Source of the DNA: Nitrospirota bacterium
GTDB lineage: Bacteria > Nitrospirota > Thermodesulfovibrionia > Thermodesulfovibrionales > JdFR-88
Length of the DNA: 47,156 nt
Direction: 5' to 3'
Assembly: GCA_021813405.1 (NCBI GenBank)
Contig: JAKAKS010000045.1
Span: 1 to 47,156, forward strand
Positions 1,701 to 43,527 of this stretch are shown here, one piece after another (position 1 is the stretch's first letter; each line of letters starts with the position of its first letter). Made by a program: the position numbers and the translations under genes. The notes beneath the pieces are model-generated. The model was not told the DNA's origin, searched no databases, and saw only the letters and a list, made by a program, of their open reading frames with translations.

Positions 1701-3254
1701 TTACTTAAGCGAGGCCGCAGTTATGCCGTACTTTTTCATTCTGTAAGCCAGCTTCCTTGGGGTGATCCCCAGCGCGGCCGCCGTTTTCTGCTGGATAAAA
1801 CCGTTTTCCTTGAAGGCCTTTATGATCCTCTGCTTTTCCAGGCTCTGCACCTCCGCCCCAAGCGAGCCTTTATCATCCTGCCAGGCCGAATGCTCCGCCG
1901 CCCCGCCCTGGGGAGAAAATGAAAAGACGCCATGCGGCAGGTCTTCCCTGCTCACAATATCCCTTTCGGCCATGATTGCTATGCGCTCTATCGCGTTTGC
2001 CAGTTCGCGCACGTTGCCCGGCCACGGGTACTGCACAAGTTCATCCATGGCATCCTTGGCTATCGCCACTTTTTTCCTGTAAGCGCGATTGAATTTCTCA
2101 AGGAAATAACCGGCCAGAAGCGGTATGTCCGCCTGCCGCTCCCTCAATGGCGGCAGCACAACGGACACCACGTTCAGACGCCAGTACAGGTCATTCCTGA
2201 ACGCGCCTTTTTTCACTTCCTCCTGTAAATTCCTGTTGGTGGCCGTTATTATCCGCACATCCGCCTTGATGGATTTGGAGGAGCCAAGGCGCTCAAAACT
2301 CTTTTCCTCAAGCACCCTGAGCAGCTTTGCCTGAAGCACCAGCGGCAATTCGCCTATCTCATCCAGAAATATTGTGCCGCCCATAGCGGCCTCAAACCTT
2401 CCCACCCGGCGCTCAGTGGCCCCGGTAAACGCACCTTTTTCGGAACCAAAGAGTTCCACTTCAAGCAGATTTTCAGGCAGGGCCGCGCAGTTCACCGCCA
2501 CAAACGGCCCCCTGGCCCTCGCGCTCTGGTAATGAAGGGTCCTGGCCACAAGCTCCTTGCCTGTGCCAGATTCGCCCAGCAGCAGCACCGTGGTGTCCGT
2601 TTCGGCCACCTTCTGCACCGTCTTCAAAACGCCCTGAAGTTTTTCGGACCTTCCTATGATATTTGGCAGGCTGAAGCGTTCGCGCAGTTCGCGTTCCAGG
2701 GTCTGCCTGCGGTCGTCTGTCTTCCTGTATATCTCCCACAGCGCGATGAACTGGGCCAGCAGCGACGCCACTATCTCCAGCACCCGCAGGTCGTCATCCA
2801 CGCCGCCCCTGCTTGCCGAATAGATGCGGTCCGCCGTTATAACGCCCAGCGCTTCGCCCTTGAAAATTATAGGCACGCAAAGGAAGGATATGCCTTCCTT
2901 GTCCGGCCTGGAGCCGGTTTTATTGAGGAACTTGGGCTCGGTCCCGATATTTGGTATGAACATCGCCAGGGCCTTTTCTATCACCCTGCCCACGATGCCC
3001 TCGCCTATCTTGTACTTGCCGCGAAGTATCTCTTCCTTGGTAAGGCCGTGCGCGGCCACTATGCGGATTTCTTTGGAAGAGGGGTCCAGCAGGAACACGC
3101 ACCCGCGCTGCATCTCCAGAAGCCCCGCCAGGGCCTGCATGGCGGCGGTAAGATTGCCTTCCAGGTCGAAGGAGGCGGTAAGAAGCCTGCTTACCTCCAA
3201 TATGGCGGCAAGCTCCCGGTTCTTTCTTTCCAGGTCCAGTGATTTAACTTCCAT
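1701..3254 (-). CDS. NifA-like sigma-54-dependent transcriptional activator (GAF-AAA+-HTH)
   Basis: A 517-aa enhancer-binding protein that would use ATP to open sigma-54 RNA polymerase complexes. An N-terminal GAF sensor domain spans about residues 20-175. The AAA+ domain shows Walker A GESGTGKE (227-234), the sigma-54 contact loop GAFTGA (274-279) and Walker [12 protein letters not shown] (293-303). It continues through the R-finger region (ITATNRN) and WPGNVREL. A Fis-type helix-turn-helix closes the protein ([23 protein letters not shown]). Overall order and the C-terminal HTH resemble NifA/AnfA, but no nif genes are in the window and the GAF ligand is unknown. There is no receiver domain, so it is not a two-component regulator. 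A possible target is the sigma-54 promoter at 28991-29008, though PilR-type regulators are more usual there. Confidence 0.9.
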
Positions 3255-3723: not shown

Positions 3724-4095
3724 AAAAAATTAATTGATCGACATATCGGAGGGCCGGGGCAGCAGATTTGCCTCTGCCACTACCGATGCATTTGGCCGGT
3801 GCCAGTTGCTTGTCTGTTTTTTCAAGGGCGGTGTTCGAATGAAGCAAGGCGGATTCCCGCCCCGGATTCCTTGTTGAAAAACCCTGTCAAGGCCTCTTTT
3901 TTAGTGTTCAAACCAAAACCTGTAACTGACCGGTTTTATGCCGTTTTTCAGTTTTCGCTGTTCAAACCCGTTCAAACCCGCGGCTTTTAAACACCACTGT
4001 TTGCCGGCAGCTTTTTCCGGCTTTCCGGGCATCATTTTTCAATGAGCAAATAAGGGCCAAATCCCCCTCACAGGCGCATTTTAACCTGGCCAGAG

Positions 4096-4141
4096 ATGAC
4101 ATGGTCAATATGACACAGGTCATGAAGTTGGTGACATGGGG
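4096..4141 (-). repeat. Copy A of a 46-bp four-heptamer intergenic element
   Basis: On the minus strand this reads as a 46-bp sequence that matches 43257-43302 at 40 of 46 positions without gaps. Against the symmetric copy B, the four heptamers here are ATGTCAC, ATGACCT, GTGTCAT and ATGTCAT, with the same 7-bp spacings. It may be a binding site for a multimeric protein or part of an RNA unit. It lies between two convergent gene ends. Confidence 0.75.
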
Positions 4142-4421: not shown

Positions 4422-6386
4422 TCAGCAGAGCGCGGCGTAGCCGGCCTTGCCCAGGAGTTCCTCGGCCTTCAGGTCCAGCATGTCCAGAAAGGCGCTTACG
4501 ACAAGCGGGTCGAACTGGGTGCCGCTGCCCCTGTAAAGCTCGCCTTTGGCCTCTGATATTGTGCGCGCCTTCCGGTAAGACCTGTCCGTCATCATTGCAT
4601 CGAAGGTGTCCACCACGCTAAGTATTCTCGCTTTAAGTGATATCTCCTCCCCGGCCACTCCGTAAGGATATCCCGTGCCGTCGTACCTTTCATGGTGCTG
4701 GAGGATGGTGGTGCGCACTCCTTCAAGCGTGCCAAGCGGGCCAAGTATCTCGTCGCCAATAAGCGGGTGAGCCTTTACCATGCTGAACTCGGCATTTGTA
4801 AGCCTGCCGGCCTTGTTCAGAATATTGGAGTCCACCCCGATCTTGCCGATATCGTGCAGGATGGCAGCATGCTCCAGGTTTTCAATCTCCTTGTTGTTCA
4901 GGCCGATGTGGCGGCCAAGCTGCACTGATAAGGTTTTTACCCTCTCGGAATGGCCGCGGGTATATTTGTCGTTTGCCTCAAGCGCGTTGACCAGGGCCTG
5001 GATAGTGCCGAAGTAGTTGGACTTCACCGAATCGTACAGCCAGGCGTTTTCGATTGATATCATTGCCTGGTTTGCAAGGGTGCTTAGAATTTCCAGCTCA
5101 TCCTCTGTAAAGTGGGAACCGTCCTTTTCCAGCAGGATGCCGCCAACTACCTGCCCTTTCATTTTCAGGGGCACGCCTATGGCAAACAGCCCGCCTTCGT
5201 CCAAGGCGTTCCTTGCAAACACGTTGGAGCCCCCGGCAAGCAGTTTCTTGTAGAGCGGGTGGGCCTCTATCATGTAATCTGAATGGCCCTCCACCCCCAT
5301 CCCCTTATTGTATTGGAGGGCCAGATTTCTACCGCCGCTTTTTTTGAGGTATATGGAGCCCCTCTCCACCTTCAGCAGTTCGGCGGTACTCCTTATAACC
5401 AGTTTTATAAGCTCCTCCGTCTCCATAATGGAGGAAAGCACCCTACCCACTTCGCTTATGCGCTTGAGCCTGTCAACCATCTTTTCCAGCTCTATGTTCT
5501 TGGTTTTAAGCTCGCGCGTAAGGCTGAGAATGGCCTTGTTTGCAGTCTCAACCTCTTTTATCTTGAACTCCAGCTGGCCGTTAAGCTCCTCCAGGGTGCG
5601 CTTGTGTTCCAGCTCCGACCGGGCCCTGCTTATCTCCCTCTCCTTGCGGATGTCCTTTTCGTAGAGCCGCTTGACCTCCTGAATGGAACGGTTGAAGGAG
5701 TCCGCCAGGATGGCGAATTCGTCCCCCGTCCTTACATCCGCCCTGGCCTCAAGGTTGCCGGCTTCAACACTGCGCGCCGTGGCCAGTATGGCGTTGAGTG
5801 GTTTCAGTATCTTCTTTGAAAACAGCAGGCTGAGCATTACCGAGACCAGAAGTATGGTAATCACGTTTGAAAATATAAGGATGTGCCGCATGGACCGGAT
5901 TACGGCCCCGGAACGTGAGAAGTCGTACCTTATCTCCACTATTCCGTTTGTTTTTATGTTCGGGCTATGGCAGCCGTAGCATCGCGGTTTGTTGTATACC
6001 GGGGCAAAATGCAGAAGAACGTTGTGCTGCAGCACCGGGGCAAACCTGCCCCCGTCCTTGAGGTACAAGGATTCGGGCGACCTGTAGCCAATCTCGGACT
6101 GTTCCTTGGAATTGAGTATGTAGCCGTCCGGCGATACTATCCTGAGGCTTAGTATCTCAGGGGAGCGCCCGATGTTTTCAAGTATCTTGTGGACCTCATC
6201 GCTTCTGCCCTCGCTCATATCCATCTCCACGCTTCTGATTATCATGTTGCTCATGGAGGACATGGTTTCCACGTCGTTTTTCACCATCTTTTTGGATTGG
6301 ATGCGAAGGACGGCAGCCGTTGACAGACCTACGGATATGAGAATAACCAAGCCGATAATGCTTATAATCTTTGCTTTTAAAGACAT
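4422..6386 (-). CDS. HD-GYP cyclic-di-GMP phosphodiesterase with periplasmic heme-type sensor
   Basis: A 654-aa membrane receptor. There is a TM helix at residues ~7-27, then a periplasmic region with a c-type heme motif CYGCH (C136, C139, H140), then a second TM helix at ~165-190. Next come a HAMP domain, a coiled coil rich in Glu/Lys/Arg and a GAF domain (~320-445). The C-terminal HD-GYP domain has HDIGKIG (from H511) and HHERYDGTGYP (from H564). HD-GYP enzymes hydrolyse cyclic di-GMP, and the catalytic HD and GYP motifs are intact. The single CxxCH suggests covalently bound heme sensing redox state or a gas, by analogy with deltaproteobacterial heme sensors; the ligand is inferred. It is transcribed divergently from der. 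Confidence 0.9.
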   Translation of the reverse strand: MSLKAKIISIIGLVILISVGLSTAAVLRIQSKKMVKNDVETMSSMSNMIIRSVEMDMSEGRSDEVHKILENIGRSPEILSLRIVSPDGYILNSKEQSEIGYRSPESLYLKDGGRFAPVLQHNVLLHFAPVYNKPRCYGCHSPNIKTNGIVEIRYDFSRSGAVIRSMRHILIFSNVITILLVSVMLSLLFSKKILKPLNAILATARSVEAGNLEARADVRTGDEFAILADSFNRSIQEVKRLYEKDIRKEREISRARSELEHKRTLEELNGQLEFKIKEVETANKAILSLTRELKTKNIELEKMVDRLKRISEVGRVLSSIMETEELIKLVIRSTAELLKVERGSIYLKKSGGRNLALQYNKGMGVEGHSDYMIEAHPLYKKLLAGGSNVFARNALDEGGLFAIGVPLKMKGQVVGGILLEKDGSHFTEDELEILSTLANQAMISIENAWLYDSVKSNYFGTIQALVNALEANDKYTRGHSERVKTLSVQLGRHIGLNNKEIENLEHAAILHDIGKIGVDSNILNKAGRLTNAEFSMVKAHPLIGDEILGPLGTLEGVRTTILQHHERYDGTGYPYGVAGEEISLKARILSVVDTFDAMMTDRSYRKARTISEAKGELYRGSGTQFDPLVVSAFLDMLDLKAEELLGKAGYAALC

Positions 6387-9123: not shown

Positions 9124-11274
9124 ATGGCTGCATTTTTTAGCCGAGCGAATAAATACAAATCCCTTTTGCTCTTTTTATTCATCCTGCTTTCCAGCGCTTA
9201 TGTTGTTTCAAGTTGCGGCAGCGGTAACGGGGCCGCACCGGCGGGCAATGGAGGGGCGGCGGCGGGTGGAACAGACCCGGCGGTATACACGGTAATTTAT
9301 AACGGCAACGGCAGCACAGGCGGCAGTGCCCCGGCAGACCAGAACAAGTATCAGCAGGGGCGGACAGTTACTGTTTCCGGCAACACCGGTAATCTGGCAA
9401 GGCCCGGATATTCATTTTCAGGATGGAACACCAGCACAGACGGAAGCGGCACTGCATATGCAGCCGGCCAAACATTCACGATGGGCACTGAAGATATCAC
9501 CCTGTACGCCGTATGGACCAGCAATCCCACCTATACAATAACTTACGACGGCAACGGAAACATGGGCGGCAGTGTCCCCGTGGACCAAAACCAATACCAG
9601 CAGGGGCAGACAGTCACCGTGCTTGGCCCCGGAAATCTTTCCAATGGCAGCGAAACGTTTGCTGGCTGGAACACCCAATCGGACGGCAACGGCGCCCCGT
9701 TTCAACCCGGGCAGAAGTTTCAAATGGGTTTATCCAATATCACCCTGTATGCCAAATGGACAGGCGCCCCAACATACAACGTATTTTATAACGGCAATAA
9801 TAATACCGGCGGCAGCCCGCCTGCGGACACTAACAAGTACCGGCAAGGCCAAAGCATTACCGTGCTGGGCAATACCGGAAATCTTGCAAGGACCGGCTAC
9901 ACATTTACCGGCTGGAACACCCAGGCAAACGGAAGCGGAACAACATATCAGCCAGGTTCGCAGTTTCCCATGGGTGCATCCAATACCACCTTGTATTCCT
10001 TATGGACCAGCGATGCCACTTACACCGTTACCTATAACGGCAACGGCAATACGGGCGGCACTCCCCAGGCAGACCAGAACAAGTATCAGCAGGGGCAGGC
10101 GGTAACCGTGCTTGGCCTGGGCAATCTCACGAATACCGGTTACGTCTTTGACGGCTGGAAGGATGGAAACGGCAATGCGTATTGGCCCGGGCAAACGTTT
10201 GCCATGGGCGCCAATAATGTCACATTGTACGCGCAGTGGGCAAGCCCGGCGTCCCGATACGCTTACGTTGCAAACTATTCCGATAACACAATATCCCAGT
10301 ACACGATTTTATCAGGCGGGATGCTGGCGCCTTTATCACCTGCTACGGTTCCTTCCGGGCCGGAGCCGTCTGCCGTTGCGGTTGATCCGTTGGGCAGGTT
10401 TGCTTACGTGACAAACGTTGGCGACAACACCATTTCGCAATACAATATAGGCGCGGACGGGACGCTAAAACCGATGGCCCCGGCAACTGTGAGTACCGGC
10501 ATTTGGCCATCGGCAATTACGGTTGACCCGTCTGGCAGTTACGTTTATGTGACAAATGACCGCGACAATTGTTCCAGCAGTTCTTCCAATACCTGCGGCA
10601 CGGTATACGGGTTCAAAATAGGCTCAGGAGGGGCGCTCACCCAGGTGTCCAGTATAGATGCCATACAACATCCCGAATCCGTGGCCGTAACCCCATCGGG
10701 CGCATATGCCTACGCGGGAAACGAGTCCGACAGCACCGTGTCACAGTACACGGTAGGCGCAAATGGAACGCTCTCTTCAATAAGCTCCGCCTGGGTTTTT
10801 ATTTACAATGCTTCGGATGCCGGTTCCGGACCTGAATCAATTGCAATTGACCCATCCGGAACATACCTCTACACGGCGGACCGAGGCTCCAACACCATAA
10901 CCCAGTTTACGATAGGGGCCAACGGCAATCTAAAATTAACAGCTTCGTTTCATACAGGCTCTTCGCCGTGGTCCATTACGCTGGCCCCCTCCGGCAAATA
11001 CGCCTATGTTGCAAATACCGGCGACAATACAATTTCTCAATACACCATAGGGACAGAAGGAGCGCTTGTGCCGATGAGTCCCGCAACGGTCCCCGCGGGG
11101 GCTTCGCCCAGGTCCGTTACAGTGGACCCCTCCGGCGCTTACGTGTACGTGGCTAATGGGGGCGATGGCACCATATCCCAGTACACGATAGGGGCGGGCG
11201 GGGCGCTGACGCCAATATCACCCGCAACAGTGCCGGCCGGGACGCGTCCGCAAGCTATTGTAACGGCGCGGTAG
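9124..11274 (+). CDS. Secreted protein with four InlB-type repeats and a seven-bladed YVTN-like propeller
   Basis: A 716-aa exported protein. The N-terminus has basic residues, a hydrophobic core (LLLFLFILLSSAYVV) and SSCGSG, an imperfect lipobox, so it is probably a lipoprotein. A Gly/Ala-rich linker leads to four ~78-residue Listeria-Bacteroides (InlB B) repeats, each with YNGNG, a D-x-N/T-K/Q-Y-x-Q-G turn, GWNT or GWKD, and a closing LYAxW. From about residue 375, seven repeats of the type YAYVAN-x-DNTISQYTIG with AVAVDPSG form a beta-propeller of the lactonase/YVTN class. No enzyme residues can be assigned. InlB-type repeats occur in bacterial surface proteins, so a role in adhesion or surface binding is inference. 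AGAGAGG at 9108-9114 supports the start. The repeats are nearly identical and may vary in number by recombination. Confidence 0.88.
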   Translation: MAAFFSRANKYKSLLLFLFILLSSAYVVSSCGSGNGAAPAGNGGAAAGGTDPAVYTVIYNGNGSTGGSAPADQNKYQQGRTVTVSGNTGNLARPGYSFSGWNTSTDGSGTAYAAGQTFTMGTEDITLYAVWTSNPTYTITYDGNGNMGGSVPVDQNQYQQGQTVTVLGPGNLSNGSETFAGWNTQSDGNGAPFQPGQKFQMGLSNITLYAKWTGAPTYNVFYNGNNNTGGSPPADTNKYRQGQSITVLGNTGNLARTGYTFTGWNTQANGSGTTYQPGSQFPMGASNTTLYSLWTSDATYTVTYNGNGNTGGTPQADQNKYQQGQAVTVLGLGNLTNTGYVFDGWKDGNGNAYWPGQTFAMGANNVTLYAQWASPASRYAYVANYSDNTISQYTILSGGMLAPLSPATVPSGPEPSAVAVDPLGRFAYVTNVGDNTISQYNIGADGTLKPMAPATVSTGIWPSAITVDPSGSYVYVTNDRDNCSSSSSNTCGTVYGFKIGSGGALTQVSSIDAIQHPESVAVTPSGAYAYAGNESDSTVSQYTVGANGTLSSISSAWVFIYNASDAGSGPESIAIDPSGTYLYTADRGSNTITQFTIGANGNLKLTASFHTGSSPWSITLAPSGKYAYVANTGDNTISQYTIGTEGALVPMSPATVPAGASPRSVTVDPSGAYVYVANGGDGTISQYTIGAGGALTPISPATVPAGTRPQAIVTAR

Positions 11275-22438: not shown

Positions 22439-24715
22439 TTGACGGCAGACCGGCCAGAGATTGAACCCGCAAGAAGCACCGCCGGTTTAAAGCCGGCCCT
22501 TGCCGCATTTTCCGCTTATCTTCTGCTATCCATCGTGATGACCTGGCCGATGGCGCTGCATTTCTCCACCGGAGTAATAGGCTCCGGCAGTGACGATCAG
22601 ATTTTCATATGGAATTACTGGTGGATAAAGCACGCCATTGTTGACCTGAAGACAAACCCGTTCTACACGGACTACCTTTTTTACCCTCACAGAACCGGAC
22701 TGGTCCTGCACGCGCTTATATTCCTGAACGGGCTTTTTTCCATACCACTTCAGTATTTTCTGCCCCTGCCCGCTGTTTACAATCTGTTTACACTGCTTGC
22801 TTTTGCACTATCGGGGCTGGGTGTATTTCTGCTTGCTGGCAGGCTGGTTACAGACCGGAAGGCGGCATTCGCGGCAGGGCTCATATTTGCTTCATTCCGG
22901 TGCGTTGAGCCCTACAACATTTCCATGACCCAATGGGCACCTTTTTATCTGCTTTTCATTTTGAAGGCTTTCGATAAAAAGGAAGGCTGGTTGGCAAGCG
23001 CCTTTCTAGCCGGCCTTTTCCTTGTATTCAACTTCTTTACCGATTATTATGTGTTTCTTGCCGTCTGCATCTTTACCGCGGTTATATTTGCGTATTACTT
23101 GATAACAAAAGCTCAAAAACCGGCTGAACTTGCAAAAAGGTTTTCGCCTGTTTTGTTAATATCTTTGCCTTTCGTTCTCCCGGTAACCTGGGCCGCTTAC
23201 AGGGAAGGCATGTCGGGCAGCGGGCTGGGCAAGTACAGCCTGAAAGGAATCGGCATAACTTTAAACGTTGCCGATATAGCCGGTTTTTTCTCTCCAAGCA
23301 GTTCAAATCCGGCAATTGGAAGATTCTCCTTCAGCCACCTTCTAACCGGGCAGGAAAACTATTCTTACCTGGGGCTAATCGCGGTATTTTTCTCGGTTTA
23401 CGCCCTTTTTAAAACACGCCTGGACAAGGAGTGCAAATTATGGGCGGTTTCAGCTGCCGCTTTTCTTTTATTGGCAATGGGGCCTTATCTTCACTTTCTG
23501 GGGAAACAAATACCCGTGCCTTTGCCGTATAAATTGTTCACCCTGAGCGGCTTTTTAGTGCATTTCAGGGACCCGGTGCGTTTGAGCATATATGCGGTCC
23601 TTTCGTTGTCCATGCTCGCGGCGCGCGGCATGGAGGCGGCTTTCAGGAAAAGGGCCTTTCTTTTTTCGATTGTGCTGCCGCTAATCCTGCTTGAGTATAT
23701 TGCCATCCCGTACGGAATTTTTGAATGCAAAATACCGCCAATATATAAAAAAATAGCCCAGGATAAAAATGCACGGACAGTGCTTGAAATACCAGCTTTC
23801 ATCCACTGGGGCTTCGGGTATGAGGGATATCCGGCCGATTTTCAGCTTTACTACCAATCCCTGCACGAGAAGAAACTGTTCAACGGTTATTTTTCGCGCG
23901 TGCCCTCAAAAACATATTGGTCTTATTTCAATCTGCCGGTTTACAGAAGCCTTTTGGTGATGCCCTCTCTTTTGACAAACAGCTCCACTATGAATTCGGC
24001 CCGGTCTTTTGATAAAAAGATCGCCCCATACTTCCTGGACGTCTACGGCGTGGATTATGTGGTTGTGCACCGTGTGCCACCGGGCAAAACGGACAAGAAA
24101 TTTTTAAAAGAATACCAGGCGGCTGTGCTTCCGCAGGAACGATATTTAAACAGCGTATTGGCACTGAAGAAAATTTATGATGATGCAAAACTTGCCGTAT
24201 ATAAAACAGAGTATACTCATTCAAATATTACATCAGTAAAGGCCTCTACTTCCGCCTCAATACTTTATCTTTATGACGGCTGGATAAACGGCCTCAACGC
24301 CGGCAATTACGGATATGCCATTGCTGCGGGAAAGCAATCAGTACTTCTGACAAACCTGAACGCTTTTATCAGTTACGAACTGGACCTGCAATTGAACCCA
24401 AACCCGTCACTTATCGATAAACGGGTTGAGGTTGGGATAAACGGGAAAAAAATAGCGGTTCTGTCCCTTCGCAACGGCTGGAATCTCTATAAAGTTGGCA
24501 TCCCGCGTTCACTGGTGAAAAACGGCCTCAACAAACTTTATTTCCGGCCTTTCTCAACGGTAATGTCCCGAACGGCATTTAAAGGGACCTGGTCAAAATT
24601 CGCGATCGGCAATCCCTATTTAACCTCCCCCGGTTATTGGGAGCAGGACAACTCAAAATTCGGCCAGCCCGAAGTCTCGTTTGCATTACATAAATTTGTT
24701 ATAACAAGGAAATGA
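22439..24715 (+). CDS. Large GT-C-like membrane protein with C-terminal beta domain (paralogue 1)
   Basis: A 758-aa protein with about 11 TM helices in the first ~420 residues, then a soluble region of ~330 residues. The first extracytoplasmic loop carries GSGSDDQIFIWNYWW, an acidic loop placed like the catalytic Asp of GT-C glycosyltransferases. Later landmarks are FYTDYLFYPH, FNFFTDYYVF and HFRDPVRLS. A beta-rich C-terminal part has SILYLYDGWINGLNAGNYGY and YWEQDNSKFGQP. It is clearly homologous to 38648-40843. The start is TTG 8 nt after an extended -10 box. The 4-bp ATGA overlap couples it to a GT4 glycosyltransferase. A role in building or modifying a surface glycan is inferred from topology and context; no family name is certain. 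Confidence 0.82.
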   Translation: MTADRPEIEPARSTAGLKPALAAFSAYLLLSIVMTWPMALHFSTGVIGSGSDDQIFIWNYWWIKHAIVDLKTNPFYTDYLFYPHRTGLVLHALIFLNGLFSIPLQYFLPLPAVYNLFTLLAFALSGLGVFLLAGRLVTDRKAAFAAGLIFASFRCVEPYNISMTQWAPFYLLFILKAFDKKEGWLASAFLAGLFLVFNFFTDYYVFLAVCIFTAVIFAYYLITKAQKPAELAKRFSPVLLISLPFVLPVTWAAYREGMSGSGLGKYSLKGIGITLNVADIAGFFSPSSSNPAIGRFSFSHLLTGQENYSYLGLIAVFFSVYALFKTRLDKECKLWAVSAAAFLLLAMGPYLHFLGKQIPVPLPYKLFTLSGFLVHFRDPVRLSIYAVLSLSMLAARGMEAAFRKRAFLFSIVLPLILLEYIAIPYGIFECKIPPIYKKIAQDKNARTVLEIPAFIHWGFGYEGYPADFQLYYQSLHEKKLFNGYFSRVPSKTYWSYFNLPVYRSLLVMPSLLTNSSTMNSARSFDKKIAPYFLDVYGVDYVVVHRVPPGKTDKKFLKEYQAAVLPQERYLNSVLALKKIYDDAKLAVYKTEYTHSNITSVKASTSASILYLYDGWINGLNAGNYGYAIAAGKQSVLLTNLNAFISYELDLQLNPNPSLIDKRVEVGINGKKIAVLSLRNGWNLYKVGIPRSLVKNGLNKLYFRPFSTVMSRTAFKGTWSKFAIGNPYLTSPGYWEQDNSKFGQPEVSFALHKFVITRK

Positions 24716-38618: not shown

Positions 38619-38647
38619 TACAAATCTTGGTCCGCCCGGAGAACACC

Positions 38648-40843
38648 TTGCAAACGGCCCCGCCCGGCTGGAGAACCGCCGTTTGGGCCTTTTTTGCCTA
38701 TTGCGCATTGTCCGTGGTCATGACCTGGCCTGCGGTCCTCCATTTAACTACCAGGGCGCTTGGCGGCGGCGGTGACAGCGTAGAGTCGCTATGGAATTAC
38801 TGGTGGGTAAAGCACGCCCTTATAGACCTGAAGACAAACCCTTTTTTTACCGATTACGTTTATTATCCGCATAAAAACTCGCTGGCCCTGCACACCCTTG
38901 TTTTCCTTAACGGGCTGCTTTCCATCCCGCTTCAATATATTCTGCCCCTGCCCGCTGTTTACAACATTTTTATCATGCTTGCCTTCGCCCTCTCCGGCTT
39001 TGCCGTGTTCCTTCTGGCGCGCCGGTTTGTGGAAGACAACCGGGCCGCTTTCCTTGCCGGGCTTATCTTCGCCTCTTTCCGCAGCGCTGAAGGCCATGCG
39101 GGGGCGCTGGTTACGCAATGGATACCATTCTACCTTCTTTTCCTTCTAAAAGCGCTTGATGAGGACGAGGGCTGGCTGAAAAACTCGCTTCTGTCGGGTC
39201 TGTTCCTGGCGTTCAATTTCTATACCGATTATTATCACTTCCTGGGGGCATTGATATTCACTGCTATCGTGCTCCTGTATTATCTGCTTAAAAAAGAAAT
39301 CCGGCCGGCTGCAATGGCAGGGAGGGCGCTTCCAGTTGCGGCCGTGTCCCTTCCGTTTGTCCTGCCGGTAGTATGGATGGTCTTCAGGCAAGGCGCGCTG
39401 GACCACGGGTTAGAGAAGGTAACCAGGGTGGAACCGGTAAACGTTACCGACCTGGCCGGTCTTTTCTCGCCAAACAGCCTGAACCCGGTGCTGGGCAGGA
39501 TCTCTTTCAATCATTTTTTTACCGGGCAGGAAAGTTATACATACATGGGGGCAGTGGCGGCGTTTTTTTCGGTGTACGCTCTTTTCAAACTCCGGAGGGA
39601 AAAACCTCACCTTACATTATGGGCTGTTTCAGCGGCAGTTTTCCTTGTGCTTTCCATGGGAACGCATCTGCATATACTGGGACGGGTCACCCCTGTGCCG
39701 CTGCCGTACAGGCTGCTCATGCAAGGGTTCCTGAAACACCTGTGGAACCCCATCCGTTTGTTCGCTTACGCAATGCTGTCCATCTCTGTGCTGGCGGCCT
39801 GCGGCATGGAGCGGGCCTTTAAAAAGAAAGGCGCCCTGCTTTTTCCAGTGCTGCTGCCAGCCATCCTGCTAGAGTATACTGTTGTGCCGCAAATTACCTT
39901 CGATTGCAGAATCCCGCCCATATACAAGACAATCGCCGCGGACCGCAACGCGCAGGCCGTGCTGGAAGTGCCGGCCTTTGTGCGCACCGGCATGGACAAC
40001 TACGGCCACGGCGCGGACGAGGCCCCGCTTTATTACCAGACGTTCCATGGCAAAAAACTTTTTGGGGAGTCCCTTTCCCGCGTCCCGCAGAGGGTCTTTT
40101 TGTCTTATTTGAATCTGCCGGTTTACAGAAGCCTGTTCCTTGGCACCCGGCGCCTGCTTCAGGCCAGGGACACCGATAAAAAGGATGCGCAGGATTTCCT
40201 GGACCTTTTCGGTATAGATTATGTGGTGGTGCACCGCACTGAAGAGTACGCCGGATTTTACGAGGGATACCTGAGGGATGTGCTTCCAATGGACTTGATT
40301 TACTCCAGTCCCGCAATCGCCGTGTACAAGGCGCAACATGACACTGGCGGCAGCCTTACCGTGCAGGCATCCACGTCCGTGTCCGTATTGTACTTATACG
40401 ATGGATGGATAAACGGGCTCAAAAGCGGCAATTACGGATACGCGGCCTCCTGCGGCAATAAGGCCGTGCTTCTTGCAAACCTGAAACCCCTCACACAATA
40501 CAGGCTGGACCTGGTGCTTGCCCCGGACAAAAAGATTAAAAACAGGCTGGTCCGGGTGGCCATAGACGGGAAGGCGCTTGCCAGCCTGGCCCTGAAGGGC
40601 GGCTGGAACATTTACAGGGTCAATATCCCGGCAGGCTTTGCCGGCAGCGGGCTAAAAAAGATTAGTCTGATGCCCGCAGAAAAGATAGATATGGCGTTCA
40701 CCGGCGGCACGCTGTGGCCCAGATTTGCCGTCCCCCTGCCATCTGATTACCCTCCGGGTTACTGGGAGCAGGACAATTCCAGATTCAAGGATGTAAAAAC
40801 TTCATTTGCGCTGCACAGCTTTACGTTAAAAAAGGTGAAGTAG
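38648..40843 (+). CDS. Large GT-C-like membrane protein with C-terminal beta domain (paralogue 2)
   Basis: A ~731-aa paralogue of 22439-24715 with the same layout: about 11 TM helices, first loop GGGGDSVESLWNYWW, then HALIDLKTNPFFTDYVYYPH, LPLPAVYN, FNFYTDYYHF, HLWNPIRLF, and a beta-rich C-terminal part with SVSVLYLYDGWINGLKSGNYGY and PPGYWEQDNSRFKD. I prefer the TTG at 38648 because GGAG lies 6 bp upstream (38638-38641); TTG at 38627 is the longer option. The paralogues share short identical DNA stretches, so the duplication may not be ancient. Unlike paralogue 1 it has no adjacent GT4 gene. A surface-glycan role is inferred. Confidence 0.82.
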   Translation: MQTAPPGWRTAVWAFFAYCALSVVMTWPAVLHLTTRALGGGGDSVESLWNYWWVKHALIDLKTNPFFTDYVYYPHKNSLALHTLVFLNGLLSIPLQYILPLPAVYNIFIMLAFALSGFAVFLLARRFVEDNRAAFLAGLIFASFRSAEGHAGALVTQWIPFYLLFLLKALDEDEGWLKNSLLSGLFLAFNFYTDYYHFLGALIFTAIVLLYYLLKKEIRPAAMAGRALPVAAVSLPFVLPVVWMVFRQGALDHGLEKVTRVEPVNVTDLAGLFSPNSLNPVLGRISFNHFFTGQESYTYMGAVAAFFSVYALFKLRREKPHLTLWAVSAAVFLVLSMGTHLHILGRVTPVPLPYRLLMQGFLKHLWNPIRLFAYAMLSISVLAACGMERAFKKKGALLFPVLLPAILLEYTVVPQITFDCRIPPIYKTIAADRNAQAVLEVPAFVRTGMDNYGHGADEAPLYYQTFHGKKLFGESLSRVPQRVFLSYLNLPVYRSLFLGTRRLLQARDTDKKDAQDFLDLFGIDYVVVHRTEEYAGFYEGYLRDVLPMDLIYSSPAIAVYKAQHDTGGSLTVQASTSVSVLYLYDGWINGLKSGNYGYAASCGNKAVLLANLKPLTQYRLDLVLAPDKKIKNRLVRVAIDGKALASLALKGGWNIYRVNIPAGFAGSGLKKISLMPAEKIDMAFTGGTLWPRFAVPLPSDYPPGYWEQDNSRFKDVKTSFALHSFTLKKVK

Positions 40844-43256: not shown

Positions 43257-43302
43257 CCCCATGACATCAACTTCATGACATATGTCATATAGACTATGTC
43301 AT
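43257..43302 (+). repeat. Copy B of the 46-bp four-heptamer element
   Basis: Four heptamers are placed symmetrically: ATGACAT (43261-43267), ATGACAT (43275-43281), ATGTCAT (43282-43288) and ATGTCAT (43296-43302). The two inner ones form the perfect 14-bp palindrome ATGACATATGTCAT; each outer one is 7 bp away. Together with the leading CCCC the sequence matches 4141-4096 (minus strand) at 40 of 46 positions. It lies about 225 bp upstream of glgP. Confidence 0.8.
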
Positions 43303-43407
43303 GGCCGTCCGTGTTTCAATGTATGCGGCGGAGAGGGAAAATTCAAGAGAATAAAAGAGGAATGGAGGATTGAACAGACTGAACAGAAAAAACGCAACAA
43401 AACCCTT

Positions 43408-43432
43408 TAAAATCAATAGATTGCAGATTTTA
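43408..43432. repeat. AT-rich inverted repeat upstream of glgP
   Basis: TAAAATC (43408-43414) and GATTTTA (43426-43432) form a perfect 7-bp inverted repeat with an 11-bp centre, in the likely glgP promoter region. Possible operator; no regulator can be named. Confidence 0.45.
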
Positions 43433-43527
43433 ATTTGAACATATAAAAAAAGGGCTGTAAAAGACCCGCCCCCCTATCGCCAACCTCGCTGTATTGCGCT
43501 AGAATGTAGCGTTAAGGAGAAACACAT

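Follow-up and report, generated by a model that had tools for sequence, protein, structure and literature searches.

A four-heptamer promoter element dispersed over a Nitrospirota chromosome and its apparent link to a domesticated Mu-like phage

The promoters of phage Mu offer the nearest model for the element described here. Mor of phage Mu binds a dyad centred at -43.5 (PMC4390567). Our locus resembles the Mor-dependent Pm and the C-dependent late promoters in that the genome encodes a PF08765 activator and Mu-like late genes would be driven by the element; as at Pm, the dyad lies upstream of or overlaps the -35, with its centre near -43 to -45. Classical Pm works without a -35, whereas here a -35-like TGGACA or TTGACA stands 19 bp from the -10, and where in Mu a few phage promoters each have a single dimer site, we found a double dyad about 60 times across the chromosome.

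The GTA regulons constitute a second point of comparison. The Caulobacter GTA regulator GafY has about 20 sites or promoters (PMC11150451), and GTA regulons in general (Caulobacter GafY/GafZ with IHF, Rhodobacter GafA) share with our system a domesticated phage cluster with a repressor and an activator, as well as unlinked accessory promoters and the involvement of antitermination (PMC11150451). As expected of a GTA cluster, the winged-helix gene of the operon is conserved in relatives, nearly always as a single copy. Unlike these regulons, the present system would use another activator family, and its targets, about 60 or roughly three times those of GafY, are mostly non-coding units with 3' box arrays of their own; its particles are putative.

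Other likenesses concern the parts of the repeated unit. As in rRNA leader antitermination (boxB-boxA, NusB/NusE), a leader hairpin is followed by a boxA that matches the genome's own 16S leader; in contrast to rRNA leaders, this boxA sits on short dispersed units under a phage-type promoter. As in pac and cos sites (the SPP1 pac boxes, the R sites of lambda cosB), an HTH gene lies beside an array of short repeats with an AT-rich separation of fixed length, but here there are dozens of chromosomal copies, the HTH proteins are only weakly TerS-like and a packaging role is putative. Finally, dozens of short intergenic copies, protein-coding relatives and mostly non-coding members recall MITE and REP repeats, from which the units differ by lacking visible terminal inverted repeats and by a promoter and array that are under constraint at orthologous loci, their mobility being putative. 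Our own reading, which we hold to be probable from the sequences compared, is that a phage-type activator, most likely one of the Mor/C family, would bind the element as a tandem-dimer operator, which is common to a Mu-like operon, to two HTH genes (HTH-A and HTH-B) and to the dispersed units.

The element and the unit that it heads

The window analysed here is a stretch of 47,156 nucleotides of contig JAKAKS010000045.1, and it holds two copies of the element (Table 1). A reading of the DNA made from the sequence alone had described four heptamers in copy 1: all four are indeed perfect, with 0 such matches expected in 100 shuffles. The second copy that it reported (4096-4141, minus strand) was reproduced, with 40 of 46 positions identical and the same spacing. 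That reading also took the element to be symmetric over 42 bp, which holds for the 28 heptamer bases and not for the spacers (nAACTTn and ATnGACn), conserved yet asymmetric because the right one contains the -35. Homology between the two copies spans 73 nt at 77%, that is, beyond 46 bp. Copy 1 lies upstream of a glgP-like gene and co-directional with it, as had been said; copy 2 had been assigned to a convergent gap, but its neighbours, an HD-GYP gene (4422-6386) on one side and a sigma54-activator gene (1701-3254) on the other, are both read from the minus strand like the element itself. Copy 1 has neither a boxA nor a good -10. A plasmid search with the copy locus returned nothing relevant.

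Table 1. Coordinates of the two copies of the element and of their associated features in the window
Feature	Position	Strand	Description	Evidence
Copy 1 operator	43261..43302	+	ATGACAT-n7-ATGACAT/ATGTCAT-n7-ATGTCAT; right spacer ATAGACT with -35-like TAGACT	Pattern search and alignment
Copy 1 degenerate -10 position	43314..43320	+	TTTCAAT (family consensus TATGAT), about 19 bp past the -35	Alignment
Copy 1 3' module, type A	43368..43457	+	TTGAAC at 43370, CTGAAC at 43379, TTGAAC at 43435, then ATATAAAAAAAGGG	nhmmer E=1.6e-15
Copy 2 operator	4096..4137	-	Four heptamers, differing at one position from the generic pattern; -35 TTGACC	
Copy 2 -10	4079..4084	-	TTAAAA	
Copy 2 boxA	4036..4047	-	GCTCATTGAAAA, with a GC hairpin before it	rRNA leader comparison
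Copy 2 3' module, type A	3890..3977	-	TTGAAC three times, then ACTAAAAAAGAGG	E=2.4e-15

The window has further repeated features of its own: an ORF at 9124-11274 with InlB/Listeria-Bacteroides-type internal repeats (GYTFTGWNT-like units), and a pair of paralogous genes (22439-24715 and 38627-40843) 16 kb apart, with stretches about 74% identical at the DNA level.

We compared the 12 genomes of the family, distributed over six genera (g1 to g6), of which the genome of the window (G000) and its sister species (G001) both belong to g1. The pattern search of whole and related genomes that the sequence-only reading had proposed gave 62-63 sites in G000 and 49-51 in G001, with 0 in reversed controls. 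A 28-nt version of the motif found 39 copies in G000 (reversed control 0), while the generic four-heptamer pattern matched 60 times in G000 and 49 times in G001, the remaining ten genomes of the family having no match. An asymmetric pattern and a position-weight matrix gave 62-63 and 51 (for the matrix, 0 in a reversed control of 268 kb). A motif scan over 84,980 species matched only one organism, a Nitrospirae MAG corresponding to G001, and exact motif scans of viral contigs gave 0 relevant matches.

An alignment of 30 copies is conserved from an AAAACC lead-in across the 42 bp to the -10, and the flanks differ beyond these limits. The promoter elements stand in register: the -35 (TGGACA or TTGACA) in the right spacer, a 19-bp gap, and a -10 of TATGAT (also TTAAAA or TATTAA). 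The 42-bp motif overlaps the -35 of this predicted sigma70-type promoter, and its inner dyad is centred at about -45 relative to the start site inferred from the -10. The earlier statement that the element is not tied to one promoter is right in that copies occur at many different loci, and has to be amended in that each copy itself belongs to a promoter. At two loci (L178, G000 C20:21846, and L188, G000 C17:188267) the boxes are bidirectional, with -35 hexamers on both sides, and are conserved in G001.

The homology outside the 46 bp, also sought at the suggestion of the sequence-only reading, amounts to a shared architecture of about 150-450 nt across the family. Downstream of the promoter, a GC hairpin of modest support (mean z -0.7) is followed by GCTCTTTGAAAA; because GTTCTTTGAAAA stands in this genome's own 16S leader, some 60 nt ahead of the 16S, we read GCTCTTTGAAAA as an rRNA-type boxA. 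With at most one mismatch it is present in 37 of 63 copies and in 0 of 46 background windows, and about 40% of copies have no good boxA. A 3' module, for which a zero-mismatch pattern proved too strict, was found in 57 of 63 copies: a pair of GAAC boxes at 9-10 bp from each other, then AT-rich DNA, a third GAAC box and an A-run. The distance from the second to the third box is 54-57 bp in 77 of 78 modules, and an element normally has boxes of a single type, either TTGAAC or T/CGGAAC. At the locus of copy 2 the sister species (L118, G001) has TGGAAC-type boxes instead of the TTGAAC of the window, a mismatch which suggests that one element may have been replaced or converted by another.

Genes under the element and the candidate activator

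In G000 (contig C50) and in G001 (C81) the element lies directly upstream of a Mu-like operon, which encodes in this order an M15 endolysin, a TM protein, a wHTH protein (phrog_436), a short coiled protein or small ORF, the large terminase, Portal_Mu (E 7e-111), Mu Gp36 and Gp37. The wHTH gene of the operon occurs in all six genera of the family, nearly always in one copy per genome. Two other copies would drive paralogous HTH genes, HTH-A being followed by a TTGAAC module and HTH-B by a TGGAAC module, and two precede secreted or tail-spike-like proteins. Most copies outside the phage operon and the HTH genes are non-coding. Of the genes that follow the 63 sites, 31 are co-directional and 32 convergent, so the boxes do not serve as leaders for a particular set of genes. 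Contig C10 of G000 has a second Mu-like cluster (L195, L156, L159, L205), which includes a terminase of its own and two further Mor homologs; no box was found in the stretch read.

The recognition helix of the HTH proteins correlates with the type of box: GSVHNI-x-K goes with TTGAAC (seven genes from three genera) and ASVHRIAK with TGGAAC. These proteins match HTH_23 at 1e-5 and give single weak matches to DUF1804 and to the PHROG terminase small subunit; searches of viral contigs and phages for relatives of the family found none. The genera g1, g2 and g6 all have relatives of the HTH genes, and g3 has a degenerate one; three genomes (G007, G008 and G009) have elements with no HTH gene detected, G007 and G009 being fragmented assemblies. 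In g2 and g6 both the promoter of the HTH genes and their TTGAAC module are homologous to those of g1, and both genera also possess non-coding dispersed elements of the same build. One g2 element (L246) contains an internal HTH-gene remnant with stops (tblastn E 8e-12). A general origin of the elements by deletion from the HTH gene was considered and rejected: it is clear in only 1 of the 22 g2 and g6 elements examined.

The operator of g2 and g6 differs from that of g1: it reads TAAACTGTTTA, with the inner dyad ATAAACTGTTTAT, and forms 13-bp dyads without the full four-heptamer symmetry. The lysis promoters of these genera carry the matching TAAACTCTTT or CTAAAGAGTTTAG, and the TAAA-centred form TAAACTnTTT is common to these promoters and the dispersed elements. 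Since the lysis promoters match the dyad of the dispersed elements, the operator changes jointly in the phage operon and in the dispersed elements. The lysis promoter of g4 reads CGGACACCGAGTTCATGTAGCCTGTCATATGGACTCCTTCAATCC..TTTATCC, and g3 and g5 align with g4, the three having homologous operators at this place (TGTC..GAC..TCA..TTTATCC). The sequence-only reading had suggested that two regulator dimers could bind here, and this agrees with the anatomy of the element, with the conservation of the heptamers above the element middle and with the joint operator change.

Which protein would bind this operator? A Mor/C protein (PF08765) is over the cut-off in G000 and G001 and occurs in 10 of the 12 family genomes. 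Its gene adjoins that of a CI/S24 repressor in g1, g3, g4 and g5, and lies within or adjacent to the Mu-like cluster in g2 and g6. An alternative binder is the LuxR/GerE-type regulator encoded divergently beside the lysis operon, a substitution that would leave the operator and the regulon unchanged. GerE-type proteins can use palindromic sites. In both G000 and G001 about 130 bp separate the box from the start of the LuxR gene, homologs are found near the lysis operon in G004 and G005 (g4 and g5), and all family genomes have one. We nevertheless think LuxR an unlikely binder: in g3 its gene is off the lysis-operon contig, and in g2 and g6 the phage cluster holds Mor and not LuxR. The recognition helices point the same way. 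That of Mor tracks the operator class (ERQVRRIL-like versus E-x-WVRRI), whereas that of LuxR (SPGTVN/SPGTIN) is nearly invariant across genera with differing operators, and Mor is therefore favoured. The conserved Mor/C-family protein is thus the most likely binder of the operator, with LuxR/GerE also a candidate.

Dispersal, constraint and the 3' array

The copies are more evenly spaced than expected by chance, with the caveat that the assembly breaks at some copies: only 2 of 30 intervals are shorter than 10 kb, versus 8.8 expected (P 0.0017), and the median spacing is 25 kb. When sites near contig ends were dropped, 1 such interval remained versus 5.7 expected (P 0.010). For 42 of the 63 sites of G000 an ortholog was found in G001. 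Identity over these 42 pairs is 96.1% in the heptamers, the most conserved part, 93.9% in the spacers, 90.2% in the promoter and 90.5% in the 3' module, versus 84.1% in the element middle and 68.2% upstream. The sequence just upstream of the box is non-homologous in about half of the orthologous pairs, as if it were an insertion hotspot. Many boxes have a repeated stretch directly upstream, GAAGGGGTACACCGCATCCCGCC..GATATATTGAGGTGAGGGGTATCAG..CCAAACACCAGCGCACTGCC (L004, L009, L015, L024-L026, L121, L125), and a further dispersed repeat, GCGGAAGCGGTTAGTGAGTGCAGTGGGCCGCGCG..AGACGAACACCGCCC..AAAAAAGTAAAA, lies close to several elements, in either orientation (flanks of L001, L035, L037, L058, L113 and L148).

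The units might also be decayed, non-autonomous MITE-like repeats derived from the HTH-gene unit, whose promoter and array would persist merely as the ends of the element. Their dispersal between genes in unrelated contexts would fit such an origin, as would the HTH-gene remnant of L246, the 21 of 63 G000 sites for which no ortholog was found in G001 and the different box types of the two species at the locus of copy 2. We consider it improbable all the same. No terminal inverted repeats were visible at the boundaries of aligned copies; no empty site or target duplication was found in the sister-genome regions compared, all of them element-bearing; at the 42 orthologous loci the element middle is less conserved than the heptamers, the promoter and the 3' module; the spacing is more even than random; and the same operator stands upstream of the phage operon, which is no such element. 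The sequence-only reading had proposed a mobile or RNA unit. It was right in that most copies head a dispersed, mostly non-coding unit, of which mobility and RNA function are both putative.

The units might instead act in trans as functional non-coding RNAs, either sponges or regulators, that are induced along with the phage system; to this we give a slim chance. They have their own promoter, a leader hairpin with boxA and mostly no ORF, and a boxA is expected where an untranslated RNA must escape Rho. Against this, the middle regions are not conserved between copies, Rfam matches in the window are limited to tRNA, and the spacing of the boxes is fixed within about 2 bp while the intervening sequence varies, as would be more natural for a DNA site. 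Because the GAAC boxes looked as if they co-varied, a structured RNA had been a candidate, which was rejected for the 3' module: its consensus RNA fold has an energy of 0 in three sets. Since no consensus fold was found and the length is fixed, a DNA-bound array is favoured. Finally, sites of nucleoid or chromosome organisation (SlmA, MatP, ParB or KOPS-like), with the palindrome as the functional end, could account for a symmetric sequence in some 60 evenly spaced copies, but we give them hardly any chance, the unit being directional with promoter elements in register, the strands mixed within contigs and the operator common to the lysis operon in every lineage examined; a nucleoid-protein site, named by the sequence-only reading, is unsupported as the primary reading.

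A proposed network and its significance

Under the tandem-dimer operator reading, the system would work as follows. Inactivation of the linked CI/S24-type repressor, a step that we infer, would allow the activator to act and to switch on the Mu-like lysis-packaging operon, the small DNA-binding proteins HTH-A and HTH-B and about 57 dispersed units. It would do so from an operator whose centre lies about 45 bp before the inferred start site and which overlaps the -35 of a sigma70 promoter, the promoter spacer being 19 bp. The untranslated units would probably be shielded from Rho by the rRNA-type boxA, where present, and the three-GAAC-box DNA array of each unit is probably bound by the cognate HTH protein: HTH-A on TTGAAC and HTH-B on TGGAAC. 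The dispersed units would be relatives, at least one of them a clear deletion derivative, of an HTH-gene unit common to three genera.

What the arrays may serve for, be it packaging, regulation or no more than their own spread, is a more speculative matter. They could be pac-like loading sites for a domesticated Mu-like particle, so that host DNA would be packaged from many defined starts and not at random, a proposal to which we assign a small chance. A Mor-class activator would then co-induce the packaging operon, two small-terminase-like HTH proteins and about 57 evenly spaced GAAC arrays, and we put this forward equally tentatively. The small terminase of RcGTA has no DNA-binding domain (PMC6854486) and pac DNA of the SPP1 type may wrap around the small-terminase ring (PMC4737164); a pac-like role is therefore worth testing, and the arrays offer a candidate, open to test, for the means by which GTA-like particles select the DNA that they package.

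The units also present a case of rRNA-type antitermination signals on dispersed non-coding DNA, and the joint change of operator and Mor across genera constitutes a natural experiment on specificity change. Since the same promoter would also drive the phage operon, the bacterium seems to have connected dozens of units, evenly spaced and for the most part non-coding, to a phage that it has domesticated. One cryptic palindrome would in this way be tied to a network that spans the genome and originates from a phage, in a phylum that has received little study.
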